Shown in pieces: positions 892 to 63,574 of a stretch of DNA of 64,000 nucleotides; position 1 is the stretch's first letter; every line of letters starts with the position of its first letter. A program made the translations under genes and the position numbers. Below the pieces are notes generated by a model, which saw only the letters and a list, made by a program, of their open reading frames with translations, was not told the origin of the DNA and ran no database searches. Source of the stretch: Taibaiella sp. KBW10. Its GTDB lineage: Bacteria > Bacteroidota > Bacteroidia > Chitinophagales > Chitinophagaceae. The DNA lies in NCBI RefSeq assembly GCF_003852495.1, contig NZ_QAJI01000004.1:553388-617387 (forward strand). Reading direction: 5' to 3'.

Positions 892-906
892 AACGAAATG
901 ATAATA

Positions 907-1419: not shown

Positions 1420-1444
1420 GAGTTAAAATAATGTTATTTAACGG

Positions 1445-1452
1445 CAAATATA
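1445..1452 (-). promoter_or_regulatory. Bacteroidota -7 element (TATATTTG)
   Basis: On the minus strand this reads TATATTTG, a perfect TAnnTTTG element, 25 bases before the DUF1573 start codon. No clear -33 TTG was found at the usual spacing, so the call rests on the -7 element alone. Confidence 0.5.
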
Positions 1453-1502
1453 CCAATTATACAAAATAAAAATACGAAAAGTAAGAGTTCAAACTGTTAT
1501 TC

Positions 1503-42481: not shown

Positions 42482-45400
42482 TTATTTAGTAGCATTAAAT
42501 CTAGTTTTCTGTTCTTCTTGTGAGGGATTCAAATTTACATCGCTGGTATTATTACGATAATCTATATCCGCATCGTGGTTTTTTCTTTTTTGTTGATGTG
42601 ATCCTTTACTACCATTTTTTGCCTTTTCTAAGGCATTTATCTGGTCAATATAAACCATTTCATGTTTCTCAGTATTTTCTCTCTCTTCTTTTGTTCCATA
42701 CTGTGCATCATAACCGAAATTTTCCTCTTCTGTATCAGCTATATATTTTGACCATGCTTTTCCCCCAATACCAAAAGCCAAGGCATTAATCATATTGACT
42801 ACATGACCTAATTCATGTACAAGTACGGTAGATGGTGACATCATCCCTTCTACAAATGGCCCATCTCCAACTAAAACTTTGGAATTGTAATCCCATTCTA
42901 ACTTCCCTAAATTTACATCTTCATTTTTACGATCATTAACAATTGGCTGAAAATGATTGACGTCTCTATCAGCTACAGTTGCATCTCTAAAATTAATATT
43001 TACTACCTTTTCACTATTACCTACAGTATTCCAAATTTCCTTTCCCATGTTTGTCTGCATAGAATACACTGCTGCCTCATGAACTTTCATAAGTATCTCA
43101 GGAGAACCGGCTGCTGGTTTAACACCTGGTGTATATTGATACGATTCTTTGTTATGATGCACCACAATTTTCTTTCCATCAGGATCAATATATTTAACAG
43201 GATTATTTGCTACATAAACAAAAGGACTTATTCCGTAGTACTTATTAGCTAACGGATCAACCCCCTTCCATCTTGCAATTTGCGGATCATATTGTCTAGC
43301 ACCATATTCATACGTCTCCAATCCAAAACTCTTCTCCAACTCCTTACCATTGTACTTATACGGCTGTGGCGTACCGCCTGCACTGGTTTGCGCCAAAGTC
43401 AGCCCAAACGGATAGTAATGATCCTCCTCTAATACCTGACCGCTGTAATGCGATACCTGTACATTATCAAACCATACATCGGTACCTATGTTTCTGTTAT
43501 CTACATACACGATCACATAACCCGGTTCGGTGGAGACCACTGGGGTATGGCTTATATTGTTAAACACACCGGGAGTTGCCGTAACCGGAAGGCTACCACT
43601 GATTTGGTTCATCAGCTTCATATTTTTATCAAAGAACAAATAGTTCAGGCCTGCCTTGGGGCCATTGCCGGTATAAGTTTGATTCAGGATGTTTTCCAAT
43701 TGGTTGCCCAGTCCAGCATTGCCCAAAGCCTGGTTGATCAGGTTGCTGCTATTACCGCTCTCACTTACTGGCATACCGCCTACGGTACCACCGGTTAAGG
43801 CAGCGGTTAATGAAGTTACGATATCTTCGGCAGAACTATTGTCTAGCTCATGATTGGGTTCTGTTTCATAATAGGCATCGGTGGCAAAGGTCAGTTTATC
43901 GCCGGGCATTACGCGCAGCATTATAGCGGTACCAATGCGTTTATTGGGATTATTGGCGATCAGTTTTGCGGCCTTCACATCATCTGGATTTATACTGCCC
44001 GGTTTATCCTCTCTTACCGCGGCAATATTATCAAAGACCAGTTGCTCGGCATTGGCGGTGGCTATTTCATGACGTGCCAGGTACTGTGCACTATCCGGTG
44101 CAGCACTGATTGTACTGCGTACATTCCCCAAATGATCTTTGATAAAGTAATCGTATACAAATTTGGTCTGCCCGCTCTGGCTGCCGCTGGTCACGCCTTG
44201 CGGACGGCTTCTACCTTCTTCATTAATTATATATTGCAGTTGGTCGTCTTTGTACACAAAGTTGCCGATATAGTCCCATATCTCGGTAGTGGCGTTGGTA
44301 TAGTCTTTGATCTTCTTTCTTAAACGGTTGCCTGCGGCATCGTAGGTATAAGTGATCTTGCCTTTACTACCAACCGCGATTAGCTCCGGCTTGTTCAGGT
44401 AGTTATAGACCACTTTGGTGATGTCTTTATTGGCATCGCTCAGCAGGTTGCCGTTATCGTCATAGGTATATTCTTCATCCTCATTGGCATTGTCTTTAAA
44501 GTCGGGTAAGGCATTGGTGGTCGCGGCGGCTACGGCATCGCTTACTTTAACCAGTTTATTGCTGTTGGGTGCATAGGTATAGCTCAGTATATCCATATCG
44601 CCGGGGCTGCCGCCAATATTGCCTCTGTGGTTCATGGTCTGGATATTGCCTAAAGCATCGTAGCTGATATTACTGTTGGTATAATCGAAATTGTCTTTTA
44701 CCCAATTATTCGGGCTGGCAATATTATTACGGTACTCGGCATGGGTCAGTCTGTTTACTTGATCATAGCTATAGCCATAAGCATGTTTCTGTGCATTATC
44801 ATCGGTATTATAATAGTTCCAGGTAATCCCTGCAATATTGCCATTGTATAGTTTGCTGCCAAAGCCTTGGTCATAATGCAGGGTCTCATTAAAGTAGTTA
44901 ATGTCCTGGTCTACAGGATTGCGTGCCTGGATATGTTTGAGCCAGCCCCGGATATTGTATTCCTGCAAAACATTGGCGATGGTGTATTGCTTGACAACGG
45001 GCTGTCCTAAATGGTTGTAATCGTAATAGGCGATGTTATAAGCGGTACCGTCATTGATGCTTTGCTGTATGTTCCAAACCTGGTCATTACCCCCAAAGCC
45101 GAGGTTGCGTTTGTATTTCTTATCGAGTTTAATACTGGTTAAGGCGGCATTGGCACCGGGAATGATCTTGGCATCGGGGTTCTGATGGTAGTTTACATTT
45201 TCATAAGCCATGCCCTGGAAAAAGTAAAGGTTGCTGTTGATCTCGGTACCGCCTTTCAGGTTGTTCTGCTGGCTTTGGATCATCCGGCCTTTGGCATCGT
45301 AATAGTTTACGGTGGTGATCCAATCATTGCCATTGGGGTTTTCCGGGTCCATGATCCTTAGTTTCGTTCCGGTCACCAGGCCTTTTACACTATTGCTGTT

Positions 45401-46702
45401 GATGGAGGGCACAATGGTGTTGTCATTTGTCGGGGGTGCCGGTACTTTGGAAGGATCGAAGCTAAAACCGCTTAACTGTGTATAGTTATCATAATAGGTA
45501 TAACTCAGGATCGTGGCATCTGTTATATCGGATGGGTAGCTGTTGAACTGGCTATAATTGTTCAGGTAATATCCTGCTTCCGGTGCGGTATACCCGCTAC
45601 TGTTGATCATAAGGTTCAGGTCTTCTCTGGAATTGGTGGTGTTCCATAATGCGGTTACGGTAGGCCGGTTCAGCGCATCATAGATCGTCATAAACCACTG
45701 TTCCCGGGCCCGCAGATTCCCGTCCTGGCTGAGTACGGGGCGGTCTCTTTTATCATAGACGATGTACTCTACGGCTTTTCCGGGAATTTTCTTTTCGGTC
45801 ACCCTGCCGCGTGCATCATACACATAGCTGTAACACAGCTCGGCTAATTGCTCTTCTGTAGGTACGGTCCAGTTATGGTTATAATGGCTGATGGGCGGAT
45901 AAATGTTTGGATTGCCCGGCTTCTGCTCTATCGTAAAGGAGCAGGAGGACGGTGGTAATACAAAACGCAATCTCCCTAAGTCATCATAAACATAAAAGGT
46001 ATAGTGGTAATTGGCCGGGAACATCGCTGCCGGTGCACCGGCAGGATACAAACTGTTGATGAGCTGTTTTGCTAAGGTTCTTTTGATCACGACTCTGCCC
46101 AACTTGTCTTTGATCTCTTCGCTCACATGGCCGTCTTCGTCGGTCACTGTAGTGATATATAGGGTGCCGTTGGCATAGTTCTCTTTGTACTTTACCGTAT
46201 TGTTGCCCGGCTCTACTATAAATCGTGGGAAACTCCCATTGACGATAATGGTCGGGATGGGGTTATTGATGGTACCGCTCATGTATTGCGGACTGGTATT
46301 GGTGCTGTATTGCATACTCGTACCGCGGTTACTGCCCACCCAGCTTTTACCGGGTGCCAGTTGTTTGGTAACGCGGTTTAAGGGAGAGTTATCATATTCT
46401 GTTTTGCTATAGGGCAATTCTCCCTGTGCTAGGGGGTAAAAGGTTTCGACGCGTGCTTTTGGGGAATAGTCGATCTGTCCACCGGAACTGACTTCTTGCT
46501 TGGCATTGGGCAGGTATTGGAGGGCTTCTCTTCCGGCGGCATCATAGATATGGTATTGCACCAGGTCATTGCCATCGGCATGGGCTCTTTTTTGTACGGT
46601 TTGTAAGGGACGACCCAGGCCGTCTACAAAATCGGTTACCTGACGGTGTTTAATATTATTGTTCTGTATGGTGGTGGGCGCATCGGGAATCCAGGTGCGC
46701 AC
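42482..46702 (-). CDS. RHS repeat-associated core protein (DUF6443 type) with HELGH metallopeptidase tip
   Basis: 1406 residues in this frame. Near the N-terminus is the DUF6443 pattern VTDFVDGLGRPLQTVQKRA; then many degenerate YD repeats (YNYLNKPELIAV, YTYDAAGNRLRKK), an RHS hinge (DHLGNVRSTISAAPDS), the core YNGKELEKSFGLETYEYGARQYDPQ, and the DPDGKK hinge near residue 1175. The unique tip (about 1177-1406) has HELGH at 1296-1300 and a charged tail, suggesting a zinc peptidase toxin. Reading starts at GTG 46702 only because of a one-base loss: the signal peptide lies in another frame at 46636-46878. An intact gene would begin at 46878. The other tips in the array can plausibly replace its C-terminus. 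Confidence 0.8.
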   Translation of the reverse strand: MRTWIPDAPTTIQNNNIKHRQVTDFVDGLGRPLQTVQKRAHADGNDLVQYHIYDAAGREALQYLPNAKQEVSSGGQIDYSPKARVETFYPLAQGELPYSKTEYDNSPLNRVTKQLAPGKSWVGSNRGTSMQYSTNTSPQYMSGTINNPIPTIIVNGSFPRFIVEPGNNTVKYKENYANGTLYITTVTDEDGHVSEEIKDKLGRVVIKRTLAKQLINSLYPAGAPAAMFPANYHYTFYVYDDLGRLRFVLPPSSCSFTIEQKPGNPNIYPPISHYNHNWTVPTEEQLAELCYSYVYDARGRVTEKKIPGKAVEYIVYDKRDRPVLSQDGNLRAREQWFMTIYDALNRPTVTALWNTTNSREDLNLMINSSGYTAPEAGYYLNNYSQFNSYPSDITDATILSYTYYDNYTQLSGFSFDPSKVPAPPTNDNTIVPSINSNSVKGLVTGTKLRIMDPENPNGNDWITTVNYYDAKGRMIQSQQNNLKGGTEINSNLYFFQGMAYENVNYHQNPDAKIIPGANAALTSIKLDKKYKRNLGFGGNDQVWNIQQSINDGTAYNIAYYDYNHLGQPVVKQYTIANVLQEYNIRGWLKHIQARNPVDQDINYFNETLHYDQGFGSKLYNGNIAGITWNYYNTDDNAQKHAYGYSYDQVNRLTHAEYRNNIASPNNWVKDNFDYTNSNISYDALGNIQTMNHRGNIGGSPGDMDILSYTYAPNSNKLVKVSDAVAAATTNALPDFKDNANEDEEYTYDDNGNLLSDANKDITKVVYNYLNKPELIAVGSKGKITYTYDAAGNRLRKKIKDYTNATTEIWDYIGNFVYKDDQLQYIINEEGRSRPQGVTSGSQSGQTKFVYDYFIKDHLGNVRSTISAAPDSAQYLARHEIATANAEQLVFDNIAAVREDKPGSINPDDVKAAKLIANNPNKRIGTAIMLRVMPGDKLTFATDAYYETEPNHELDNSSAEDIVTSLTAALTGGTVGGMPVSESGNSSNLINQALGNAGLGNQLENILNQTYTGNGPKAGLNYLFFDKNMKLMNQISGSLPVTATPGVFNNISHTPVVSTEPGYVIVYVDNRNIGTDVWFDNVQVSHYSGQVLEEDHYYPFGLTLAQTSAGGTPQPYKYNGKELEKSFGLETYEYGARQYDPQIARWKGVDPLANKYYGISPFVYVANNPVKYIDPDGKKIVVHHNKESYQYTPGVKPAAGSPEILMKVHEAAVYSMQTNMGKEIWNTVGNSEKVVNINFRDATVADRDVNHFQPIVNDRKNEDVNLGKLEWDYNSKVLVGDGPFVEGMMSPSTVLVHELGHVVNMINALAFGIGGKAWSKYIADTEEENFGYDAQYGTKEERENTEKHEMVYIDQINALEKAKNGSKGSHQQKRKNHDADIDYRNNTSDVNLNPSQEEQKTRFNATK
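43172..43597 (-). repeat. RHS-core repeat, copy A (in the full-length gene)
   Basis: The parental 426-bp core segment from DPDGKK back to the GSLPVTATPGVF segment; the four displaced copies downstream match parts of it. Confidence 0.85.
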
Positions 46703-46890: not shown

Positions 46891-49800
46891 TTAGTTGGTA
46901 CTTTGGAATTGGTATTCATGGGTCTTTAAAAGATTACCATTCAGGTCTTTTACCCTGATCAGCCTGCCCAATGCATCATATTCGTAATAGGAAATATTGT
47001 TCTTATCGTCACATACGGAAGTGATCTGTGCTTTGCTATTGTAGGTGACGGTTTGCAGGGTGGCGGCGATGGGCATTAGCCGTAACTCATCTATAATACC
47101 GGTACCGGTTAATTGTAACTGGCTGTTTTGAAAATCATACTCGTAGAGTTTCCAGCCATTGATGGCAGGATTAGTGCTGCTGAGCAAGGTACCGTTAGCA
47201 TAAACATTTGCAGCCCCTTGTGCCCAGAAGCTTACTCGGTAAGGTGTAGCGGTGTTCAGGCCACTTTTGGTGAGGCTGCCGCTACCCAGGTTACAGGCGC
47301 TCGTGCCGGTAAGGCCGCTGCTCTGGTAACTAATGCCGCTACCGGTCCAGGCATCGGTACTCGCGTTTTCAAAAGAAGTTGCCGATACCGTCGCTATATC
47401 TGCTCCGGCTACTACGGTGCTGATCTGGCCCAGTCTCGGGTTGTGATAGGTTTTGGAAAATAACTGATCATTGACGGTATAGCTGGTCGGGCTTCCGGCG
47501 CTATAGGATAATACGCCCAGGTCTTTGGTATAACGGCTGTCTTTATCTATTTGGGTACCATTAACGGTTGCCGGGCTGTAATCATCAATCGCATCGCTCA
47601 GTTTAAGGCTATAGATATTTTTGGGGGCACCGATCGGATTGCTGGCGACTTCCATATAATTACCGGCGGTCACCTTCTCTCCGTCCTCGTCCGAGGTGGT
47701 CTGGTATAATTCTAAAGGCACATTGTAGATGCGATTATCCTGAAGGCTTTTGATGCCTTGCAGTTCTCCGGATAAAGTACCGGTAGCCGGCAGGCTAAAA
47801 TCACGGGCGTATTTAAAATTACTGATCTCTTTGGTACCATCGTTAAAAATGGTGGTAATGGTCGAAGGGGATTTTTGTTCGGGCGTATTATAGGTATAAT
47901 TGGTGGTGGTGACCATTTCCTGTCCATTCAAATATTCTTTATTGACTTCCTGTGCCACTTGTACACTGGCGGATTTGATCTCGTATTTAATCAAGCGGAT
48001 AAAATCAGAACCGGATGCCATTGCGTTGGTTGTTGTTTTAAAAGCATAAACACCATAACTGGATGTTGCAGCCGGAAAGCTGTTCGTATAATTCTTCTGT
48101 TGTTTGAGTACACCATTTTCATCGAAAGTCTTTGTACCGGCTAATTGTCCATTCTTATAGCTTTCAGACATAAAGAATGCGGGCAGCCCTTGGGGAACGA
48201 CCATTGGCAAGCCTTGATTACGGTAGGTATTTACGATCTTACCATTAGCCGCACCGGTAATCTTTTTACTCACCTGACGATAGTAAATCGGAGAACCGAT
48301 AACACCACCACTATTAACCAGATCATTAAATTGAAAAGTATAATAATCACTATACTGGATAATAGTAGGCCTAAGTGGATCGAGCGTCTCTTGCTCACAT
48401 TTCATCGTCCATTCTTTGATCACATCCGGATATGAAAAAAGGATACCGCTGGAGTGCCCTGCACTGTCTGTTTCGTAGGTATAGGCTGTTGTTTGGGTCT
48501 TGTTACTATACTGGTCATAGTTCTCGATTGAAGCGATGCGCAAACCCGGGCCGATCTTGCTGTGGTTGTAGCCAATCACTTTATACTCTTTACTGTTCAC
48601 CCTGACCATGGCAGTGGTACAGGTATCTTGTTGGATCGTACTTTCAAAATGATAGGTACCCGGATCCAATTCTATATCAAAATCCATTTCTTCTGCAAAA
48701 GATAAAATAGCACCGAAAGTTCCATTTTTGTATAGCACCGCACTTCCTGCGTAAGGACAAGGGCCTTGAGGGTTACCTGAAGAGCTATAATGGATAATGC
48801 TGGGGCTGAAAAAGCTGCTAAAGTGAAACCTGGTGGTCGTCGTAATCGTAAAAGGCGTCGTTATAGGTGTGGCATAATTAACGGTATTGGCATTAGTGGC
48901 ATTGGTACGGCTAATCACTTGGTATACCGGTTCATTGACCCAATACCGGTTATTTTCAAAATTAAAATTGGTGTAACCACCTGTCGGGTAGGTGATTTTA
49001 GACAGGGTTCCGGCGATGGTTTCGGTTCCGGGCATACGGCTCTCGGAAGAATAATTATATTGAAATGTTGATGGGCCTCCATTACTACCTTGTAATAAAA
49101 GCTCTTCTTTTACAGGAAATTTAATGGCGCCAATCCTGTAATAACCCCATAGGTCCTGTAAGGTATCATTTCTTGCAGGTAAGGGAGTGCTGTTATAGTC
49201 AAAAGTGTATTCCCCGATGACCTGGTTATTGGAAGGGTCAAGTTGCTGTACTTTCTCCAATTTTAAGCGCTTGGCCGTATTGCCCATACCGGTAGCAGCG
49301 GTAAAATAATCAGTGGCCAGTAGGGTTTTCTGTACCAGGTTATTATTTTTATAGACACTGACATTATCCAATGCCTTAGTTCCCAATACATCTAAACGAT
49401 TAGTTGTTGCCGCATTAAAATCGATCCGGGTATTTTCATAGTTGATGGATTTCAAACGTAAAGAAAGAATGCGCGAATAGGCATCTCTGCTTACCTGGGG
49501 AGATAAAGAGCAATAGCTGACCGCCCCCGGTTTGGCAATCGTTTTTTGAAAGTCCCAAATCTTATCTGTTTCCAACGTATCTACTTCATAGCTAAAGCTT
49601 ACGGTAGATCCGGTTTTAGGATCGGAGATAGAACCCAAATACCAGGCGGTATTTACTGAAGCATCGTAAGTTGGAGCTGGAGATGGATTAGTAGTAGACA
49701 GGTTGTCCAGGTTTTTTTCAATCTTATTGAACAAATAGATCAGTCCATTATCATCGGTAACTTTAAAGGAGGTTAATTTACCGGGTAAGGGTAAACTGGC

Positions 49801-50436
49801 CTCCACTTTGATATCATCATTTGGAGTAAGGATGGCCTTCAGCTGCATCTCGTTGTTCTGCTGACCTTCGGGAAGTAATGTAAAGGTCCCCGACCTCCCG
49901 GCAAAGTTATAAGAGAACAGATCGGGCATAAAGTCATAACGGCCTTCGTCAATGGCCATTTTGAAATCCATAAAAGGGAGACCCTGTTGCTGGGCATCGT
50001 TAATTTCTATACCTGAAGTCACGTTATTAATGGTCTGGTAATTATAAAAGTAACCTGCATTACCGGCGCCAACAACGGCATCATCGGCCAAACCCTGTAC
50101 GCGGCGAGTCACAACCCCACCCGCATCCAGCGAAAATCCAGCCCCTACCCAAGAGGTCTGCTCGCTTACTTTAATCCCCGAACCATGATAGGAAAGGCTA
50201 ATAGGAAAGCTGATGTTGCCGACACTTACATTATATATAGGAATTTGGATATTGGGGGTACCAGTGCTTTCATTTACCGGGTACTCGCCATACTTGCCCA
50301 GCTCTGCCGCATTGGGCGATTGCGCCACTGCGGTCATGTTCTGTGTTAAGCTCTGGAAATAATTGTTCTGCTGCGCCGAAAGATGCCCCAAAGTCAATAG
50401 GGAAAAACAACTCAACAGGAAGGTGGTTTTAGTCAT
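46891..50436 (-). CDS. SpvB/TcB-like exported YD-repeat protein, partner of the RHS protein
   Basis: 1181 residues. Signal peptide (to about 21, SAQ). At 75-115 it has ISFPISLSYHGSGIKV and WVGAGFSLDAGGVVTR, very like the start of SpvB/TcdB-type proteins (pISLsY..G.G ... WslslgsItR). A long middle of beta-rich repeats follows, and the last 50 residues are a YD repeat (YYEYDALGRLIRVKDLNGNL). It lies 12 bases upstream of the RHS signal-peptide frame. By analogy with Tc toxins it could form the first half of a shell that the RHS protein closes; that is inference. Confidence 0.7.
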   Translation of the reverse strand: MTKTTFLLSCFSLLTLGHLSAQQNNYFQSLTQNMTAVAQSPNAAELGKYGEYPVNESTGTPNIQIPIYNVSVGNISFPISLSYHGSGIKVSEQTSWVGAGFSLDAGGVVTRRVQGLADDAVVGAGNAGYFYNYQTINNVTSGIEINDAQQQGLPFMDFKMAIDEGRYDFMPDLFSYNFAGRSGTFTLLPEGQQNNEMQLKAILTPNDDIKVEASLPLPGKLTSFKVTDDNGLIYLFNKIEKNLDNLSTTNPSPAPTYDASVNTAWYLGSISDPKTGSTVSFSYEVDTLETDKIWDFQKTIAKPGAVSYCSLSPQVSRDAYSRILSLRLKSINYENTRIDFNAATTNRLDVLGTKALDNVSVYKNNNLVQKTLLATDYFTAATGMGNTAKRLKLEKVQQLDPSNNQVIGEYTFDYNSTPLPARNDTLQDLWGYYRIGAIKFPVKEELLLQGSNGGPSTFQYNYSSESRMPGTETIAGTLSKITYPTGGYTNFNFENNRYWVNEPVYQVISRTNATNANTVNYATPITTPFTITTTTRFHFSSFFSPSIIHYSSSGNPQGPCPYAGSAVLYKNGTFGAILSFAEEMDFDIELDPGTYHFESTIQQDTCTTAMVRVNSKEYKVIGYNHSKIGPGLRIASIENYDQYSNKTQTTAYTYETDSAGHSSGILFSYPDVIKEWTMKCEQETLDPLRPTIIQYSDYYTFQFNDLVNSGGVIGSPIYYRQVSKKITGAANGKIVNTYRNQGLPMVVPQGLPAFFMSESYKNGQLAGTKTFDENGVLKQQKNYTNSFPAATSSYGVYAFKTTTNAMASGSDFIRLIKYEIKSASVQVAQEVNKEYLNGQEMVTTTNYTYNTPEQKSPSTITTIFNDGTKEISNFKYARDFSLPATGTLSGELQGIKSLQDNRIYNVPLELYQTTSDEDGEKVTAGNYMEVASNPIGAPKNIYSLKLSDAIDDYSPATVNGTQIDKDSRYTKDLGVLSYSAGSPTSYTVNDQLFSKTYHNPRLGQISTVVAGADIATVSATSFENASTDAWTGSGISYQSSGLTGTSACNLGSGSLTKSGLNTATPYRVSFWAQGAANVYANGTLLSSTNPAINGWKLYEYDFQNSQLQLTGTGIIDELRLMPIAATLQTVTYNSKAQITSVCDDKNNISYYEYDALGRLIRVKDLNGNLLKTHEYQFQSTN

Positions 50437-50486: not shown

Positions 50487-52025
50487 TTATAATTTCCATC
50501 CCAACCTGATCATCCATGGCGAATTGATCCCTGATTTATCGCTCAGAAAGTTGTAGCCGATCAGGAAAGTACCTTGTGCTTTACTGTTGACTTTATAGCT
50601 TTTCATCACGCCTAAATAAGCGGCATCCTGTAACAAGCCCATAGCGGTTTTCAGGTTACTGCTGTTGCCATATTGCTCCTGTAGTTGCACGTAGGGACGA
50701 TTATTGGGGCGCAGGCTCTTTTCGTAACCGCCTTGCAGGCTAATACCCCAGATAACTTTGTAATCTAAGTATACCCTGGCTGTAATTCCTTCATAACTGA
50801 GTTTGAGGTGCTGCCAGTCTTTACCCAAGCCCAGGCTGCCATCTAAGCCGACACCAAAGCTCAGTTTTGGGGTTTGCCGGTAAGCTGCGTTTATCCCCGT
50901 TTGCACCATTACGGGTTTTAAACCATCGGCCGAGGCTCTTTGACTTTGAAAGTTGTATTGCAGCTCCCAACGATGCCAGAAAGGAATACCTCTCATGGGA
51001 TTTTTAAGTTCTTTTCCGGTACGCTTAAGGTTTTGTTTGCCCTCTTTAAGGCTGTTCTGCGTCTCTTTAACTAAGGCCTTATTTTCTTTTATCGTATTAT
51101 TTACTTTCTTAACCTGGTTCAAGTGCTTATCGATTCCCAATTGCTTACTATATTCCTGTACCTGCTGCCCGGCCTGTTGTTGTAATTGATCCAGCTGATT
51201 GCCAAACTGCTGCTGCATGCCTGCAGCAACGCTGGCTTTGGTCTGAAAACCCATTTGTTGCAGTTCTTCTGCACTGATATTCGGATTATTCATCGCCGCC
51301 ATATTATGGACGCCATTGGCCTTACTCAGGTATTCATTAAAACCTTCTATCCCCTGCAGGTAATCCAGCGCTTTTTGTTCGGCCTCATCAGGATCCTGTA
51401 CGATCTGTTTCCAATAGCCTACCTGTTGCTGTCCATAACCAAAGGTTTGTTTCAGTTTAGCGGCCTTATCGGCAAGTGCTGTATTATTCAGGAGTTTTCC
51501 CAGATCGGTATTTCTTTGTTTAAGCCGGTTCTGAATATAGCTTTGTACATTCAGTTTTTGGTTAAGCTGCTCCAGTCCGGGTATATTGACGGCATTATTC
51601 GGTACCAACAGACCTGCCTTGTTTTGTATAAAATTCTGTATTTTCTTAAGACTATCCAGCGCTTTGCTAGGATATTTGGCTTGCGCCTGTTTCAAAAAAG
51701 TGGAATCTTTAAGGCTTTTGCCCAAACTATCGAAACTGAGGGAGCTTAATTTCCGGTAACGGGCATACAGCAGGGAATCGCTGCGCTGCAATTGGCGGGC
51801 CAACTGGTTTTCCTGTCTTTGCAGCCGCTTGAGTAAGCGGCGCTGGCTACGGCCGGCCTTCTTTTCGTATCGGGTATAATGCCCGGATTGTTTTTTAATA
51901 TAAACCTTTGCAGCATGAACAATCTCGCTGCTGTCCGAAGCATAAATTAGGGTTTGATCCTGTGCCAGACTAGCGAAACAGGAGCTCATCAATAGAAGGA
52001 CGATCAATAAAAAAGGATATTTCAA
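50487..52025 (-). CDS. Exported coiled-coil and beta-barrel protein upstream of the RHS genes
   Basis: 512 residues. Signal peptide (MKYPFLLIVLLLMSSCFASL; a lipoprotein-like SSC is present but the cut after SLAQ looks better). Residues ~30-340 are Gln/Lys/Leu-rich helices with coiled-coil pattern (RRLLKRLQRQENQLARQLQR; QLDQLQQQAGQQVQEYSKQL). The last ~170 form strands with barrel character (LSFGVGLDGSLGLG ... SPWMIRLGWKL). It is 50 bases upstream of the SpvB-like gene on the same strand. A role in surface export or anchoring of the RHS complex is possible; no known family recognised. Confidence 0.6.
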   Translation of the reverse strand: MKYPFLLIVLLLMSSCFASLAQDQTLIYASDSSEIVHAAKVYIKKQSGHYTRYEKKAGRSQRRLLKRLQRQENQLARQLQRSDSLLYARYRKLSSLSFDSLGKSLKDSTFLKQAQAKYPSKALDSLKKIQNFIQNKAGLLVPNNAVNIPGLEQLNQKLNVQSYIQNRLKQRNTDLGKLLNNTALADKAAKLKQTFGYGQQQVGYWKQIVQDPDEAEQKALDYLQGIEGFNEYLSKANGVHNMAAMNNPNISAEELQQMGFQTKASVAAGMQQQFGNQLDQLQQQAGQQVQEYSKQLGIDKHLNQVKKVNNTIKENKALVKETQNSLKEGKQNLKRTGKELKNPMRGIPFWHRWELQYNFQSQRASADGLKPVMVQTGINAAYRQTPKLSFGVGLDGSLGLGKDWQHLKLSYEGITARVYLDYKVIWGISLQGGYEKSLRPNNRPYVQLQEQYGNSSNLKTAMGLLQDAAYLGVMKSYKVNSKAQGTFLIGYNFLSDKSGINSPWMIRLGWKL

Positions 52026-55808: not shown

Positions 55809-56651
55809 TTATTGTTTGGCAAATGCCAACCTGAAGGCTTTGGGGCTTTTACCGCGCTGGGTTTTAAAAAATTTATTAAGATGGCTTTCATCGGTGAAAC
55901 CCAGCTCATCGGCGATTTCTGTAATACGCCTGTCGCTGTGTTTCAAGCGGTGTTCAATCAATGTGGTTTTATAATTATTGATAAATGATTGTAGGGTCTC
56001 GCCGCTATGTTTCTTAAAATATTTGCCCAGGTAATTTTCAGAGATGCCAAATGCTTTACAGATGCTTTCTGTACGGATTTTTTCAGGCTCATATATGTGG
56101 CACTGTATATAGTTGAGCATTTCAATAATACGCGCTTCTGAAGATTCATCAATATTCTGCGGCAGGTATTTGGCAATATTACGCGCCACCACCATAATCA
56201 ATGTGTTGACCAATTGTCCGGTCAGTTCGCCATGGTACAGGTCTTTGTTTACTGCCTCGCGGATCAGCGCTTCTACCAGCGGACGTACAAGTGTTTTATC
56301 GCTTTGGTTTTTTAAGATACAGCCCGGCTTATGGTTGGCATTTTGCAGGATAAATTCCAGCCGCTGTATATTTTCCTGAGAAAATCCATTCCCTTTCAGG
56401 TAAATATTACGGAAACGCAGGAAGAAAAACCGTGTGGTACTGTCGATAGAGAACTGGCTGCAGTCCTGTGGTGTCAGCAAAAACATGTGGTTTTCGTAAT
56501 ACGAAAAACGATGCTGGTTAATGCAGTGCTGCCCGCTTCCGGACAAGATAAACACCAATTCGAAAAAATTCTTTTTACCCTGCAGTTCAGGAAATGTATC
56601 AAGGGTTTCGAAATGGATGTTATAAGGTTCGTATAAAAAATTGGGCTTCAT
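55809..56651 (-). CDS. AraC-family transcriptional regulator
   Basis: 280 residues. An N-terminal AraC ligand-binding cupin (about 1-110, LVFILSGSGQHCINQHRFSY) and a C-terminal double HTH (about 175-280: IRTESICKAFGISENYLGKYFKKHSGETL, then ITEIADELGFTDESHLNKFFKTQRG with the family signature). It likely senses a small ligand and controls the divergent acetolactate decarboxylase operon starting 114 bases away, as well as itself. The ligand is unknown. Confidence 0.9.
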   Translation of the reverse strand: MKPNFLYEPYNIHFETLDTFPELQGKKNFFELVFILSGSGQHCINQHRFSYYENHMFLLTPQDCSQFSIDSTTRFFFLRFRNIYLKGNGFSQENIQRLEFILQNANHKPGCILKNQSDKTLVRPLVEALIREAVNKDLYHGELTGQLVNTLIMVVARNIAKYLPQNIDESSEARIIEMLNYIQCHIYEPEKIRTESICKAFGISENYLGKYFKKHSGETLQSFINNYKTTLIEHRLKHSDRRITEIADELGFTDESHLNKFFKTQRGKSPKAFRLAFAKQ

Positions 56652-56671
56652 ACCGACAAAATTAATAGGAG

Positions 56672-56679
56672 CAAATATA
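56672..56679 (-). promoter_or_regulatory. -7 element (TATATTTG) of the araC gene
   Basis: Minus-strand TATATTTG, 20 bases before the regulator start codon; back-to-back with the element at 56727-56734. Confidence 0.55.
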
Positions 56680-56726
56680 TACCTAATTAAAGCAATTTTA
56701 TACTACACAACAGCCATTTAACGGTA

Positions 56727-56734
56727 TATTTTTG
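56727..56734 (+). promoter_or_regulatory. -7 element (TATTTTTG) of the acetolactate decarboxylase operon
   Basis: Plus-strand TATTTTTG, 30 bases before the ATG at 56765. The 47 bases between this and the araC element are the likely operator zone. Confidence 0.55.
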
Positions 56735-56764
56735 CTTTATCAAATCAACAAAATACGATTAAGC

Positions 56765-57532
56765 ATGAGAGCAATAATAGGCGCAACGATTTTAATACTG
56801 GCGGCAACACCCCTCAAGGCGCAACAAAAAGCGGACAAAATTTTTCATTATTCGACTATGGATGCGATGCGCAACGGCGTATATACCGGCGGGCTCAGTG
56901 TAAAAGAGGCAAAGCAAAAGGGCGATTTCGGCTTAGGCACCTTCCATCTGCTGGATGGGGAACTGATTGCCCTAAACGGAACCATTTACCGGGTGGCCAC
57001 CGACGGCACTGTAGCGATAGCCAGTGATCAGCGCAGCATTCCTTTCGGTTCTTTTACCTTTTTCAAAGCAGACCATACTATAATATTAAAAGACATAAAC
57101 ACAATTGATGATTTACAAAAAGAGTTATTAAATCATCTGCCTTCTAAAAACCGTTTTTACGCCCTTAAAATTGAAGCTACTTTCAATAATATATCACTGG
57201 GAGGTGCGATCAAAACCCATGAATCGGATACTACCGGCATCGCTGCCTTTATGAAAAACAGACCGGTATATACCAAATCGAATGTCCGGGGCACCATCGT
57301 AGGCTTTTATAACCCGCCCTATATTAGCGGTATCGATCTGTCGCCTTTTCACTTTCATTTCCTTTCTACCGACAAAAACTTTGGCGGGCACTTAATGAAC
57401 GGAAAGCTATCTTCTGCAACAATCACGGTTTACGCAGATGAAAAAGACAGCTATGAGCTGGCGCTGCCAAACACAGACAATGCGGGATACCGGCGACACT
57501 GGAAAACATCTGAAACAACCGCTACATACTAA
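56765..57532 (+). CDS. Exported alpha-acetolactate decarboxylase
   Basis: 255 residues from ATG 56765; a longer frame starting at a TTG inside the -7 element is rejected. Family motifs: YSTMDAMRNGVYTGGLSVKE, GDFGLGTFHLLDGELI, and the zinc site His196, His198, His209 in SPFHFHFLSTDKNFGGHL, whose spacing equals that of the Bacillus enzyme. It decarboxylates 2-acetolactate to acetoin. Unlike the cytosolic enzymes, it has a clear signal peptide (IGATILILAATPLKAQ), so it acts in the periplasm or outside. It is followed 31 bases later by the cupin/MRJP gene and divergent from the araC gene. Confidence 0.88.
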   Translation: MRAIIGATILILAATPLKAQQKADKIFHYSTMDAMRNGVYTGGLSVKEAKQKGDFGLGTFHLLDGELIALNGTIYRVATDGTVAIASDQRSIPFGSFTFFKADHTIILKDINTIDDLQKELLNHLPSKNRFYALKIEATFNNISLGGAIKTHESDTTGIAAFMKNRPVYTKSNVRGTIVGFYNPPYISGIDLSPFHFHFLSTDKNFGGHLMNGKLSSATITVYADEKDSYELALPNTDNAGYRRHWKTSETTATY

Positions 57533-57563: not shown

Positions 57564-58967
57564 ATGAAAAGGACAAAGAAATTCCTGCTTTTAACGGCTA
57601 CAAGCCTACTCTTTAATCAGGCAAATGCACAAGAACGCATACTACAAACAGACTTTAGCAAAGGGAGCTGGGAACAAGTGGGCAAAGGCCTGCAGCGTAA
57701 ATGGGTAACCGGTTCTGAAAGCACTTTTGCCCATTGGAAAATGGATAAAGGTGCTCACGTACCGCCACATCAGCACCCTAACGAGCAGGTCACTTATATT
57801 ACCAGCGGCAGCGTAAAGGTGATTATGGATGGGAAAGATCATATTGTAAAAGCAGGGGGCGTACTCGTCATTCCTCCGAATACAACGCATGAATTTTTCT
57901 GCCTGGAAGATGGCACGGTAGACCTCGATTTTTTCGCCCCGGCCCGTAAAGATTGGATAGAAGGTACGGCCAATTATATTCCACAACAGCAACGTAGCAT
58001 AGAAAAGGTCGCACAATTTGATGATGTACGGCCGGGCAACGTAGCGGTAAGTAAAGATGGACGTGTGTTTGCCACCATTCATCCACTAGGTAATCCTAAG
58101 CAGCAATTGGTAGAGATTATAAATGGCAAAGCCATTCCTTTCCCCTCGCTTGCCCTTCAAAAAAACGGAAATCCGGCCAGTGATAAAACCTTTGATACCC
58201 CTCTGGGTATAACCGTAGACGATAATAACCAACTGTGGATGATCGATATGGGATTGGAACTGGGAAAAACCCGCTTATGGCGTTTCGATTTAAAAAAGAA
58301 TACTGTAGCAGAGACAATATACTTTTCTCCGGAAATCGCGCCTAAAGGAAGTTTTCTGCAGGATGTCGCTATTGATGCAAAAAGAGGATGGGCTTACCTG
58401 GCCGACATTACGAATCCGGGTATCATTACCTTGAATCTTAAAACAAAAAAGGCCCAAAGATTTAGCGGTCACGCAGCCTTGCAGGCAGAAGATGTGGATA
58501 TGATGATTGGCGGACGGGTTATCAACTTTGGTGGCAAACCGGCACGTGTCGGCATCAATCCGATTACGCTTTCAGCAGATGGAGAAACGCTTTTCTTCGG
58601 CTCTATGAATGGTACTACCTGGTATAAAGTACCGGCAAAACTATTTCGTGAAAACGCCGATGAGCTTACGATTGGCAATGCCATACAAAAATTTGGCGAC
58701 AAGCCTATCAGTGATGGGGTGGCAACAGATGCCCAAGGCAATCATTATATGACCAACCTGGGTGGCTATAGCATCAGCAAACTGGATGCAAAGGGCCAAC
58801 TCAGTAATTGGGTAACGGACAGGGCTTTGAACTGGCCGGATAATATAGCATTATCTCCGGATGGATACCTGTATATTTCGGTTAACCAACTATACACGAC
58901 GCCGGCCTTTACCGGTGGTACTGACCAGGGCAGACCACCCTATTTCATTTACCGTATCAAACTATAA
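57564..58967 (+). CDS. Exported cupin + major-royal-jelly/yellow-like fusion protein
   Basis: 467 residues. Signal peptide (to about 23, NANAQ), then a single cupin at about 45-125 with HQHPNEQ (His69, His71, Glu74) and PPNTTHEFF (His109). Residues ~147-467 resemble the MRJP/yellow beta-propeller: NQLWMIDMGLELGKTRLWRF, VDMMIGG..., GINPITLSADGETLFFGSMNG and ISDGVATDAQGNHYMTN. The cupin is likely a metal site and the propeller a ligand-binding or lactonase-like part. The combination is unusual. It lies between acetolactate decarboxylase and an oxidoreductase in one operon. Confidence 0.75.
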   Translation: MKRTKKFLLLTATSLLFNQANAQERILQTDFSKGSWEQVGKGLQRKWVTGSESTFAHWKMDKGAHVPPHQHPNEQVTYITSGSVKVIMDGKDHIVKAGGVLVIPPNTTHEFFCLEDGTVDLDFFAPARKDWIEGTANYIPQQQRSIEKVAQFDDVRPGNVAVSKDGRVFATIHPLGNPKQQLVEIINGKAIPFPSLALQKNGNPASDKTFDTPLGITVDDNNQLWMIDMGLELGKTRLWRFDLKKNTVAETIYFSPEIAPKGSFLQDVAIDAKRGWAYLADITNPGIITLNLKTKKAQRFSGHAALQAEDVDMMIGGRVINFGGKPARVGINPITLSADGETLFFGSMNGTTWYKVPAKLFRENADELTIGNAIQKFGDKPISDGVATDAQGNHYMTNLGGYSISKLDAKGQLSNWVTDRALNWPDNIALSPDGYLYISVNQLYTTPAFTGGTDQGRPPYFIYRIKL

Positions 58968-59033: not shown

Positions 59034-60047
59034 ATGAAAGCCATCGGATTTAAAACCTCTTTGCCCCTTACCGAAGCGGAAAGTTTCCTCGCATTTGAAA
59101 AAGATATTCCCAGCCCTTTGGGGCACGACCTGCTGGTAAAAATAGAAGCTATCGGCATCAATCCGGTAGATTTCAAGATTCGTCAAAATAGCTTGAAAAA
59201 TCAGGTACTGGATAGCCCTAAAATAATCGGCTGGGATGCCGTGGGTACGGTAGCAGCAGTGGGCAACCAGGTTTCACTTTTCAAAATAGGCGATAAAGTT
59301 TTTTATGCAGGCGATATTAACAAAGATGGTTGCAACCAGGAATTCCAATTGGTTGATGAACGTATTGTGGGTTTTGCCCCTAGAAAGATAAGTGCCGCGG
59401 AAGCGGCTGCGATACCATTAACCGCACTTACTGCATTTGAATTATTATTTGACCGGATGCGGTTGCATCCGGAAAAGGACAAGGGCAAGTCAATCCTGAT
59501 TATCGGGGGTGCAGGCGGTGTAGGCTCTATTGCCATCCAAATAGCTAAAAAGCTTTTGGGTTTAACCGTAATTGCTACGGCATCAAGACCGGAAAGTATG
59601 GCCTGGTGTACGACACAAGGTGCCGATTTTGTGGTAAACCATAAAAACCTGGTAACAGAAGTAAGGCAGAGGGGCCACGAAACGGTAGATTTCATACTGG
59701 ATCTGGTTGATGTGAATCAGTATTGGGATGCTTTTGTACAGCTGATTAAACCACAGGGTAGCATCGGTAGCATCAGTGATCCGGTAGCACCGGTCAATCT
59801 TCGTCAGTTAAAGGGAAAGAGTGTCAGTTTCCATTGGGAGCTGATGTTTACCAGGAGTATGTTTCAAACGGATGATATGATCGGGCAGCATCATATACTG
59901 AATACTGTAGCGGAGCTTTTGGATAAGGGTATTCTACAAACCACGTTACAAAAAACCTTTAATGGGTTTAGCGTTGAGCATTTAAAAGCCGCGCACCATT
60001 TACAAGAGAGCGGCCAGACCATCGGAAAAACGGTTCTTGTATATTAA
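59034..60047 (+). CDS. Medium-chain dehydrogenase/reductase, quinone-oxidoreductase type
   Basis: 337 residues. GroES-like N-domain (KIEAIGINPVDFKIRQNS, GWDAVGTVAAVGNQVSLFKIGDKVFYAGD) and Rossmann domain with IIGGAGGVGSIAIQIAKKL near residue 155-173. Typical zinc ligands (GHE) are absent, so it is of the zinc-free quinone/enone reductase class (ZADH-like), NADPH-dependent in the cytosol. It is 66 bases after the cupin/MRJP gene, and is the last gene of the araC-linked operon. Its substrate is unknown; diketones such as diacetyl are a speculative fit. Confidence 0.85.
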   Translation: MKAIGFKTSLPLTEAESFLAFEKDIPSPLGHDLLVKIEAIGINPVDFKIRQNSLKNQVLDSPKIIGWDAVGTVAAVGNQVSLFKIGDKVFYAGDINKDGCNQEFQLVDERIVGFAPRKISAAEAAAIPLTALTAFELLFDRMRLHPEKDKGKSILIIGGAGGVGSIAIQIAKKLLGLTVIATASRPESMAWCTTQGADFVVNHKNLVTEVRQRGHETVDFILDLVDVNQYWDAFVQLIKPQGSIGSISDPVAPVNLRQLKGKSVSFHWELMFTRSMFQTDDMIGQHHILNTVAELLDKGILQTTLQKTFNGFSVEHLKAAHHLQESGQTIGKTVLVY

Positions 60048-60544: not shown

Positions 60545-63500
60545 TTATTGCTTTACAATTTTATAAGACTGACCGTTGACGAGTATAGTGTAAATACCTT
60601 GGGACAATTGTCCCATATGTAACTGCAGCTGTTTACCATAATGTCTTATACCCACCATTATGGTCACGTCTTTACCCTGTTCGTTAAAAACCCGGATTCT
60701 ATCTGATGATATATCTGTTTGGGCTACGAGATAAACGAATTGTGTAACCGGGTTAGGATATACCTCCATCAAAGCTTGCGCACAATCAATATCATTTCTC
60801 AATACTTTGCTGTAGATCGATGCGCCGCCAATATAGTTAATCTTAATCCTAAAAAATCCGGCTCCGGGATAGGTGTAACTTTTTACAGTTCCATCCAGGA
60901 TGGCCAGCGGACGCCATACTATGCCATCTTTACTATAGCCCAGTTCAATACCGGATACGATTTCCGCATCCGTTGCGATAGTCCAGTTCAAAACAGTATG
61001 GCAGTCTTTGGTCTGTACAGAGAAGTCTTTGACACTAATCGGAAGTGGCGAAGGTATAGACAATATAAGCTGTTCGGGAAAGCCATTTTTGGTATTAAAA
61101 CGCAGCTCGGTAGTGGTATCTCCCGGCTGCAGAGAAACATTGGCATTGGCGGAGTCTATAGCCCATAGTCCCCTTAATACGATGGTTACCGTATCGGTCT
61201 GCGCCACACGATGTAAACGGGAAGCGACACCACTAATCTGTCCCCAGCTATAGGATTCATTAGCGGCCAGCAGGCCCAGGTTGGGGTTCGTAAGACTGAC
61301 CTTTATCTTTTGCCCGCCATTCATTTTCCGGGTCATGATTATTGCAGGTTTATTGCTTTTAACAAACACGTCTGTGCTTGCCAGCGCGGCATTCTTCCAC
61401 ACGACATAGCAATAGGTAGAATCGGGCTTATGCAATACAATATGCGCCAGGCTATCCTGCTGTATTACAGAAAAGTAATTATTAAAATTTTGCAGGAAAT
61501 CTGCAGTAGCTGCCCCACCCTGCACCTTTATACCATATTGATAGCTACCCACAGCCGGAGCGATTCCATGATCCAAATATGCTTTTGTAAAATTGCCGGT
61601 CAGTACAGACGTATTAGATTCATCCGGAGCAGACTGGCTCGCCCGGCTCAATACAACGGTATGGGCATTATAGCTGTTAGCCGGTACTACGTAGCCATTA
61701 CCCATAGCATCAGTAGCCCACAGTCCGCCGCCATTCTGGCTAAAATTATAATTATTACCAGAAACGGTCGTTCCGTTTACCAGGCTGGTATTCGTACCGC
61801 TAATTGCATTCTGAAATAAGGTTGTATGAATTGGGTATGTGCCACCTATATCCTTAATATTGGATCCCAGGCAAAGGATCTGATCTCCAAAGAAGAAATA
61901 TGTCTTCAATGCAGTCATACCGCTTGTAGAATTATAATCTTTATAGTCCATTGCAAAAATACCGGAGGACTGATCCAGATGGGCATGCGCCAGAAAATCC
62001 TTTCCGTTCATTTGGCGCATGGCAAAGTTTGCCATAGTCGCAAAGGGTACATCAGCTACCGTCGTACCGGGAAGGTGCGCCCAGTCCCAGCCGGCGAAGG
62101 AAAGGCCATTGCTGTCCGGGCTTACCGGATTGCCGTGGGTCAGTATTTCCAGGACGCCTGCAGCACCGTAGGCGCCCAGCCGGTTTTCGGCATCCCCATT
62201 TTCAAAATGCCAGATGATCTTGCTGGTGCCTTTTACGCTTATTTGCCAGCCATTGTATTTATGTATACTAAGCCCTGCATACGGGAACCCGAAATGCCCG
62301 TTTGTCAGCTCCGCTAATGGCGCGAGACCGGCATCCAGTACATTTACCATATCCTGTATGCCACCCATACTATGGATCATATTAATACTGAGCACATTAC
62401 TTCTCTGCAGATTTGTATTAGCAGTAGGCGATAATGCCCAAAGCCTTACAAATTCACTACCTGCATCTGCATTGATGATGGGATCTGCCGCATACAAATA
62501 GGCTAAAGCAGGCCGGAGGATATTTAAGGATGAGGTATTTGTAGGGAACCGACCTGCTAATCCACGGGGCATGGTAAAATCGATACTGAATTTACGATAA
62601 TTCATTACCGCTTTTTTAAGATTATCCTTCGCTACTGCACCCAACTGGTAAGGGCTACCGGAAAGCATGAGGCAGAGGATGGACGCCTGATGCAAGGCAT
62701 CTACCCCATAGGTATTGGCATAGGCACCGCGGTGGTGATAGGTTATAAAATCTGGCTTGATACAATCTGCCCAGCCATTACTAACTAATAGAGAATTATT
62801 GATAAAAGCCGAGAGATGATCCATATTGGCCAAACGGCTTGCAGCAGTATCATCCTGTGCCAGCACATAACAAAGACGCTGCTGTAGAGAGGCCCTGATC
62901 ACATCGCTGTTGTAACCCGGATAAGTAAAATTAAAGTAAGGAAATTCCGGAGCGACAAATTTGGTAATCCCGTTTAGCGCGCCCATGTGGTGTACAAATT
63001 TCCCGGCAGCTTTTAGTTCCTCTTTCATCAAGAAAATAGCCGTGGCATAGGCAGAGGAGCGCAAAGCGATTCCGTGACTACTCGTAACTACTTCTTCGTT
63101 TCCTAAAATAAGGTCATACGCAAAATCGGTGGTATCGCTTACACCTTTGGCCGCTATGTAATCAAAGATCATAAGGATCGTATCCCTTAATGTAGTCCGG
63201 TTATAATCCGGATTAGGACTGGTCGCTCCCCCGGGTATGCTATAGAGCATCACCAGCCGGATCAGCTTTTGCTCGGTCAGCAAAAAGAATTGGTTTTTGT
63301 CCACAGTCTGGTCAAAATTCCATGGCGCTCCAGGATTGGCAAAATCAAAGGCGGAAAGATCCCTGGCCGCTATACCCGCATTACGAAAGCGGATATAGCG
63401 GTCATTGACAATAGTGTGGCCATAGTTCACACTAGTGCCGCTAAGCCAATTCCGGTACTTTACAGCAACACTATTAATTGCTGTATTTTGTGTATAACTT

Positions 63501-63574
63501 ACTGTGGCCCATGCCATCAACAGGACTAATAATATAAATCGCTTCACAACATTGATTTTTAAGAAATTAAGCAT
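60545..63574 (-). CDS. T9SS-exported PL8-family polysaccharide lyase (chondroitin/hyaluronan lyase-like)
   Basis: 1009 residues, matching chondroitin ABC-lyase length. Signal peptide (ends about TVSYTQ), an N-terminal alpha-helical (alpha/alpha) domain at ~30-390 with the candidate catalytic region KPDFITYHHRGAYANTYG (His280/His281, Tyr285/Tyr289), a central super-sandwich (~400-660), further beta domains, and a type-A sorting tail (YPNPVTQFVYLVAQTDIS ... GIYTILVNGQSYKIVKQ). PL8 enzymes cut uronic-acid-containing glycosaminoglycans by beta-elimination. The exact substrate is not shown. No SusC/SusD, sulfatase or other PUL gene is seen beside it within the window. Confidence 0.82.
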   Translation of the reverse strand: MLNFLKINVVKRFILLVLLMAWATVSYTQNTAINSVAVKYRNWLSGTSVNYGHTIVNDRYIRFRNAGIAARDLSAFDFANPGAPWNFDQTVDKNQFFLLTEQKLIRLVMLYSIPGGATSPNPDYNRTTLRDTILMIFDYIAAKGVSDTTDFAYDLILGNEEVVTSSHGIALRSSAYATAIFLMKEELKAAGKFVHHMGALNGITKFVAPEFPYFNFTYPGYNSDVIRASLQQRLCYVLAQDDTAASRLANMDHLSAFINNSLLVSNGWADCIKPDFITYHHRGAYANTYGVDALHQASILCLMLSGSPYQLGAVAKDNLKKAVMNYRKFSIDFTMPRGLAGRFPTNTSSLNILRPALAYLYAADPIINADAGSEFVRLWALSPTANTNLQRSNVLSINMIHSMGGIQDMVNVLDAGLAPLAELTNGHFGFPYAGLSIHKYNGWQISVKGTSKIIWHFENGDAENRLGAYGAAGVLEILTHGNPVSPDSNGLSFAGWDWAHLPGTTVADVPFATMANFAMRQMNGKDFLAHAHLDQSSGIFAMDYKDYNSTSGMTALKTYFFFGDQILCLGSNIKDIGGTYPIHTTLFQNAISGTNTSLVNGTTVSGNNYNFSQNGGGLWATDAMGNGYVVPANSYNAHTVVLSRASQSAPDESNTSVLTGNFTKAYLDHGIAPAVGSYQYGIKVQGGAATADFLQNFNNYFSVIQQDSLAHIVLHKPDSTYCYVVWKNAALASTDVFVKSNKPAIIMTRKMNGGQKIKVSLTNPNLGLLAANESYSWGQISGVASRLHRVAQTDTVTIVLRGLWAIDSANANVSLQPGDTTTELRFNTKNGFPEQLILSIPSPLPISVKDFSVQTKDCHTVLNWTIATDAEIVSGIELGYSKDGIVWRPLAILDGTVKSYTYPGAGFFRIKINYIGGASIYSKVLRNDIDCAQALMEVYPNPVTQFVYLVAQTDISSDRIRVFNEQGKDVTIMVGIRHYGKQLQLHMGQLSQGIYTILVNGQSYKIVKQ

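Follow-up and report, generated by a model that had tools for sequence, protein, structure and literature searches.

A yellow-type propeller joined to a KdgF-type cupin in an AraC-linked operon of Taibaiella sp. KBW10, with a possible role in the disposal of a reactive small molecule

Insects are the best-known source of yellow/MRJP proteins. Literature searches found no biochemical role for the bacterial members and no enzyme activity of a bacterial yellow protein. The only one found there with a deletion phenotype was Deinococcus DR1790, whose deletion reportedly affected growth, membrane permeability and survival of H2O2 and radiation (PMC4507557, PMC8533742). DR1790 belongs to the same propeller family as the protein described here, but it is reported as a membrane protein with a pleiotropic stress phenotype (PMC4507557). 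A bacterial origin has been proposed for yellow/MRJP proteins, and the list, as given in excerpts of that paper, of domains that accompany MRJP in a small number of proteins from bacteria and fungi does not contain a cupin (PMC6678240). A cupin placed N-terminally to MRJP is mentioned in a single sentence for Flavobacterium akiainvivens and F. hydatis (the genome of the latter corresponds to our locus L112), but the section of that paper that mentions it gives no operon, structure, residues or function (PMC6801697). The first-pass annotation had stated that no function was described for the combination. That part stands with respect to this source, but the bare architecture had already been published. 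Full-text literature searches found no description of a cupin-propeller operon and no paper joining cupin, acetolactate decarboxylase (ALDC), AraC and quinone.

The window analysed here is the whole stretch of 64,000 nucleotides from contig NZ_QAJI01000004.1 of Taibaiella sp. KBW10. It contains an ORF that starts with ATG, encodes 467 aa and is free of internal stops (Table 1). A cupin and an MRJP/yellow propeller had been proposed to share one secreted polypeptide, and Pfam places both in this single ORF above their cut-offs: Cupin_2 at residues 57-119 (54.8 bits vs 27.2) and MRJP (PF03022) at residues 215-412 (66.5 bits vs 19.8). Judged by eye from its signal-like N-terminus, the protein looks exported, in line with the proposed secretion. 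An AlphaFold2 model computed from 68 aligned window and genome-contig sequences (mean pLDDT 89.5) consists of a strand-rich N-terminal domain followed by a propeller, and its residues 1-27 have a pLDDT below 50, as a signal peptide would give. The model built from the fusion sequence alone (mean pLDDT 41.2) was set aside. Since the same fusion was found at 25 loci of other genomes, it is not a chance read-through. The genome has no second PF03022 match. An Rfam search of the window returned no match.

Table 1. Features of the operon region, in positions of the window
Feature	Position	Strand	Evidence
Divergent AraC-family regulator	55809..56651	-	ORF, Pfam
Operator-like half-site 1 (AGCAANNNTATAC)	56670..56682	+	repeat pattern
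Operator-like half-site 2, direct repeat 21 bases from site 1	56691..56703	+	repeat pattern
Operator-like half-site 3, inverted	56724..56736	-	repeat pattern
Exported-looking acetolactate decarboxylase (ALDC)	56765..57532	+	TIGR01252, alignment; ORF listed from TTG 56732
Cupin-propeller fusion CDS, 467 aa, signal-like N-terminus + KdgF-type cupin + yellow/MRJP propeller	57564..58967	+	Pfam, PDB sequences, model
Cupin domain, residues about 27-135	57642..57968	+	Pfam, alignment to BeKdgF
Yellow/MRJP propeller, residues about 145-467	57996..58964	+	Pfam, PDB sequence and structure matches
Zinc-binding alcohol dehydrogenase family protein (TIGR02817; quinone/enone-reductase-like), operon gene 3	59034..60047	+	
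PL8-type polysaccharide lyase with type-9 secretion tail	60545..63574	-	Pfam

The propeller is of the yellow/MRJP type, by its sequence matches and by structure matches that rank yellow-type entries first and the SMP-30-type entry 2P4O lower. In a PDB sequence search it matched 2QE8 at 1.5e-48. The same bacterial entry is the top structural match to the modelled propeller (Z 44.8), followed by the Aedes dopachrome conversion enzyme 9W1K (Z 36.8, 313 residues, 2.3 A), the MRJP1 entries 5YYL (Z 35.8) and 7ASD (Z 34.5), and the sand-fly salivary protein 3Q6K in fifth place (Z 33.9). No paper on 9W1K was found in a literature search. 2QE8 (Ava_4197) is thus the nearest solved fold and belongs to the same propeller family, but its matched 336-residue chain consists of the propeller only. 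The insect dopachrome conversion enzyme/yellow/MRJP1 proteins match the fold at Z 34.5-36.8, but they share only 16-18% identity with the window propeller and have no cupin. Further down, the Deinococcus Cu/Zn-superoxide dismutase 9M58/9M59 (residues 140-461, Z 29.3) is another bacterial enzyme with such a propeller attached, although its partner enzyme differs from those of the window. Two Diels-Alderases also match (Z 28.6-28.8). An SMP-30/gluconolactonase identity was considered and rejected. Instead of the SMP-30 hit without MRJP that would have spoken against the first-pass assignment, SGL/SMP-30 (PF08450) reached 27.8 bits (cut-off 26.3) over residues 332-418 only, against the MRJP score given above, and 2P4O scored Z 28.2 vs 33.9-44.8 for the yellow-type entries.

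For the cupin, the PDB sequence search gave 7ZYB (3.8e-14), entries named KdgF or pectin degradation protein (about 1e-12) and, near these, the "cellulose oxidative enzyme" 9BWF (2e-11). In the BeKdgF paper, the metal ligands are His50, His52, Gln at 56 and His90, and Asp102, Phe104 and Arg108 are the counterparts of YeKdgF residues proposed to be important for catalysis; for residue 56 a figure legend prints Glu56 and the text says one glutamine (PMC11381880). Through a sequence alignment with 7ZYB, whose chain numbering was taken to be 20 above that of the paper, the ligands map to H69, H71, Q75 and H109 of the fusion protein, and the Asp, Phe and Arg to D122, F124 and R128. All seven residues are invariant in 25/25 cupin-covering rows (the window itself plus all but one of the 25 fused loci) of an alignment with 67 related rows (A2) from which near-copies such as L110 were excluded. 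The domain thus carries the residue set of a ring-opening cupin. The structure-match list of the fusion model was filled by propellers and is therefore no test of the cupin fold. The domain shares with KdgF the four metal ligands and the D/F/R set, but here it is fused and exported-looking, and its relatives lack a PL8 neighbour. In another locus (L046:1498-3150, minus strand) a 550-aa ORF ends in a KdgF-type cupin, and what precedes the cupin resembles repeats of a different domain.

Two alternative functions bear directly on these matches. In the first, the cupin is a true KdgF that linearises a 4,5-unsaturated uronate released by lyases such as the nearby PL8-type enzyme, and the propeller works on the product as a lactonase. 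The best cupin matches (7ZYB and the entries named after KdgF or pectin degradation), the retention of 7/7 functional residues and the presence of the PL8 gene agree with uronate processing. However, that gene is convergent with the operon, lies 497 bases past the end of the reductase gene and has no homologue among the ORFs of the 79 related loci described below, for which reason a direct link of the lyase to the operon was dropped. With identified neighbours that are mostly redox-type enzymes, and a propeller closer to MRJP than to SMP-30, this function is decidedly unlikely. In the second, the propeller serves as a scaffold for ligand binding and the cupin binds the ligand or works like that of 9BWF, in binding/sensing or in polysaccharide oxidation. 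Sand-fly salivary proteins such as 3Q6K bind ligands, and the propeller could likewise bind rather than catalyse. Both the proximity of 9BWF to the KdgF entries and the presence of 3Q6K among the nearest folds fit such a role, but the KdgF set, including D/F/R, is invariant in the 25 rows and the operon partners are enzymes; a binding or polysaccharide-oxidising role is considered unlikely.

The ALDC gene ends 31 bases upstream of the fusion and its likely start is ATG 56765. Its product scores 187.4 bits with TIGR01252 (equivalog cut-off 180.65), has a signal-like N-terminus suggestive of export and, in an alignment to solved ALDCs, keeps the HxH...GGH (HFHF...GGH) and LDGE motifs. The His residues of the ALDC motif bind zinc. 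Like other members of TIGR01252 it passes the cut-off, but it differs in sitting with a cupin-propeller and an AraC gene. The operon with an exported-looking ALDC reported at first pass is thus recovered; its extent was understated, since the set also includes the divergent AraC gene and the reductase (TIGR02817, 415.2 bits vs 284.05). The resulting order is divergent AraC, ALDC, cupin-propeller fusion and zinc-ADH-family reductase. Elsewhere in the window are an arginine deiminase-family protein (2943-4397, plus strand; PF02274, 189.6 bits) and a 1406-aa protein with DUF6443 and RHS repeats (42482-46702, minus strand). For the large ORFs neighbouring the latter (46891-50436 and 50487-52025), Pfam returned nothing at 0.001.

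Between the AraC and ALDC genes there are three putative operator half-sites (at 56670, 56691 and 56724). The third overlaps TAnnTTTG at 56727-56734, which we take to be a Bacteroidota -7-like element. The AGCAANNNTATAC pattern occurs three times in the whole window, always in this intergenic region, against 0.27 expected, and 1/100 shuffles contained three. The pattern was derived from the same alignment that it describes, so the weight of the half-sites comes from conservation. The direct pair (spacing 20-22 bases, at least 8/12 matches) is present in 12/18 AraC-linked intergenic regions, mostly of close Chryseobacterium relatives; 300 single-base shuffles gave 0.7 such regions on average and never more than 4. 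In the genome the exact tandem pair was found once. A wide regulon was rejected on this ground, and the single pair points to a probably local regulator.

The fusion is rare and patchy, yet it recurs in Chryseobacterium, Flavobacterium and Pedobacter. Including its own genome, it was found, by matches across both domains, in at least 2/147 sampled genomes of the family, in at least 2/396 of the order and in at least 4/395 of the phylum (both at E <= 1e-18); the three samples overlap and these figures are lower bounds. Four other genomes of the genus gave no match to the fusion at E <= 1e-18 and none to the operon reductase at E <= 1e-20. A single-protein search of genome contigs found no relative. 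An alignment-based search with two patterns from close propellers gave 79 loci among the best 80 of 85 matches. Seven were dropped as they had no propeller ORF after overlap filtering (L122, L141, L145, L149, L154, L165, L172), leaving 72 analysable loci, 25 fused and 47 unfused. Because of the way the patterns were made and the restriction to the best 80 of 85 matches, the 25 fused loci are not a prevalence. Many of them are close relatives in one genus, so that locus counts are not independent, and some genomes were seen twice (the contigs of L110, L140, L121 and L171 are apparently those of G713, G788, G101 and G746). The fused hosts are Chryseobacterium, Flavobacterium, Pedobacter and one other member of Flavobacteriaceae.

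The search of genome contigs also found related propellers in other phyla. This argues against a secreted mimic of a eukaryotic protein that acts on a plant host, a role suggested for F. akiainvivens and for bacterial MRJP proteins (PMC6801697). The cytosolic reductase in the operon and the local regulator also argue for the cell's own metabolism, and host mimicry appears highly improbable.

The pairing of fusion and operon noted at first pass was upheld in the survey, as ALDC lies directly upstream of the fusion in 20 of the 25 fused loci; the remaining five have no adjacent ALDC. Within three genes, the fused loci have ALDC in 20 cases, AraC in 21, ABM in 11 and ADH-type genes in 6 (n=25), and the unfused ones have 1, 8, 4 and 9, respectively (n=47). 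The sole unfused locus with ALDC, from Tenacibaculum (L131), has a Cupin_2 protein two genes on. ABM or ADH-type genes are found within three genes in 16/25 fused loci and neither is found in 9/25. ORFs within three genes of the propeller (near, 428) were also compared with those five or more genes away (far, 528) across the 72 loci, which are related to each other and hence not independent. ALDC was found in 21 near vs 0 far ORFs, ADH-type in 15 vs 1, ABM in 15 vs 0, nitroreductase in 6 vs 0 and AraC in 32 vs 5. There was no support for CMD (0 vs 1) or FMN reductase (0 vs 0). The gene set recurs in part or whole in other Bacteroidota. In a fused locus of Flavobacterium (L108) it continues with deacetylase-family, glyoxalase-family (just over cut-off), ADH-type, weakly cupin-like and NADH:flavin-oxidoreductase-family genes. 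Downstream of the Chryseobacterium operon small ORFs were seen with a GG-type leader-like sequence and several cysteines (L098:10001-10246, L106:10941-11189).

Redox-type genes are also near the propeller in 6/10 annotated plasmid loci, which were hand-picked from 40 listed rows of 344 records without a control set. These are Enterobacter sp. (nfsB and NAD(P)H oxidoreductase), Pseudoalteromonas (zinc-ADH), Rhizobium (zinc-ADH, quinol monooxygenase, SDR), Phaeobacter (CMD and NADPH:quinone reductase), Sphingomonas (NADH:flavin oxidoreductase) and Pantoea (zinc-ADH and ABM). No redox neighbour was present in the other four (E. asburiae, Methylomagnum, Vibrio, Gloeothece).

The strongest rival explanation concerns dicarbonyls derived from acetolactate. 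The exported ALDC would turn leaked acetolactate into acetoin before its oxidation to diacetyl, the reductase would reduce dicarbonyls or acetoin, and the cupin-propeller would act on a related alpha-hydroxyketone; as a whole this explanation is rather unlikely. The TIGR01252 score and conserved motifs of the ALDC favour this explanation, as does its co-occurrence with the fused cupin (20/25 vs 1/47). In Chryseobacterium L098 the sole NCBIfam match of the ABM protein next to the fusion is LsrG, a dione isomerase, far below cut-off (36.7 vs 135 bits). However, related propellers have ADH-type or ABM neighbours in loci without ALDC, and acetolactate is therefore unlikely to be the whole story. 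Moreover, no acetolactate synthase or butanediol gene is found among the adjacent genes in the window.

Ten other ALDC regions were inspected. None (0/10) had a KdgF-type cupin among the four ORFs on each side, so the ALDC-cupin link is seen in the fusion group only, and these regions gave no sign of a general link outside it. The same family queries found no reductase or ABM in six of them (L201, L202, L203, L207, L208, L210). L204 and L209 have ALDC with a single oxidoreductase-family partner. L205 (G650) has a run of nitroreductase, ABM, ALDC and ADH-type genes, in which ALDC has a lipoprotein-like start and no MRJP gene adjoins. In L206 (G200; 381-1952, plus strand) a single ORF carries ALDC behind a part that looks propeller-like. 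This part matches Cj1041c (22GU) at 1.8e-26 and propeller families only below their cut-offs, and its propeller fold is therefore putative. At L204:6417-7998 ALDC and a propeller-like part resembling Cj1041c were seen in different frames.

In the propeller tree the window protein groups with the Chryseobacterium rows and G674 (SH-aLRT 99). This grouping, together with the absence of the fusion from the sampled genus, suggests gene transfer. The propellers of a second fused group (G114, G799) are far from the first. One clade uniting the fused propellers of both groups was rejected (p-AU 4.6e-43), and so was the close fused group alone as one propeller clade (p-AU 2.0e-30), as unfused forms are found inside it; these tests used 52 of 122 rows, picked for speed. 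For the fused cupins of the two groups a single clade was not rejected (p-AU 0.295, few columns). Two wholly independent fusion events were dropped as an explanation, given that the propellers reject one clade and the cupins do not. From these two outcomes it appears that cupin and propellers were combined more than once, through repeated recombination, and two unrelated origins are not claimed.

Variant arrangements were also found. Chryseobacterium culicis (L117) retains the fused form's signal region and its first residues; the cupin is absent in frame and no ALDC adjoins. In the Tenacibaculum locus the order is propeller, ALDC and a protein with an SGL-like part (sub-threshold, 20.4 vs 26.3 bits) before Cupin_2. 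Repeated joining of this kind would usually be a sign of a shared pathway. Other MRJP loci showed further combinations. The 654-aa protein of L132:7938-9899 combines two propellers, one of MRJP type and behind it one of SGL/NHL type, and L125, L127 and L130 have ORFs of the same length (654 aa). Genes of the cupin-like DUF4437 with export-like N-termini adjoin MRJP genes in L085 (9586-10419, minus strand), L089 (7808-8662), L128 (8985-9884) and L134 (9086-9952), making DUF4437 a second cupin type tied to MRJP propellers. L082:9268-11917 and L083:9467-12096 each have a stand-alone MRJP gene directly upstream of a cupin-MRJP fusion of the second type.

The explanation that we tentatively prefer, as possible though somewhat short of probable, is that the fusion is the periplasmic arm of an inducible, AraC-controlled operon which disposes of a reactive small molecule of the quinone/electrophile type. 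It builds on the computed domains, propeller fold, conserved residues, operon order, operator-like repeats and gene-set recurrence. The six plasmid loci with redox-type genes, the gene run of L205 and the deletion phenotype of DR1790 also speak for it. The reductase families seen in these neighbourhoods typically belong to cellular responses to quinones and other electrophiles, and the proposed role follows from their presence. The neighbour families are broad, and the term "quinone" rests partly on family names. We know of no quinone chemistry for ALDC.

In the disposal scheme, the compound or a derivative would trigger the divergent AraC protein at the repeated half-sites, upon which ALDC, cupin-propeller and reductase would be made together. 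The periplasmic KdgF-type cupin, with its metal presumably held by H69, H71, Q75 and H109 and with D122, F124 and R128 in the pocket, would open or tautomerise a cyclic enol-type compound. The tethered yellow-type propeller might isomerise this compound or the one that follows it, in the manner of dopachrome conversion. The exported ALDC would decarboxylate a keto-acid product, and the cytosolic reductase (with ABM in relatives) would handle what enters the cell. Export, induction, catalysis by each domain, the order of steps and the class of substrate are what we infer in this scheme.

In this operon a yellow-type propeller shares its polypeptide chain with a domain whose active site is of a known type, and ALDC and a reductase stand with it under one local regulator. 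For this reason the class of substrate is narrowed and the question becomes testable. The gene set recurs and is under local regulation, and it may serve to clear away a reactive small molecule. More speculatively, yellow-type propeller, KdgF-type cupin and exported ALDC could form an undescribed, recurrently re-fused extracytoplasmic module for quinone-like electrophiles, which we regard as doubtful. If true, bacterial yellow proteins would gain their first defined metabolic role, and the module would serve as a model of how the chemistry of dopachrome conversion originated before there were animals.
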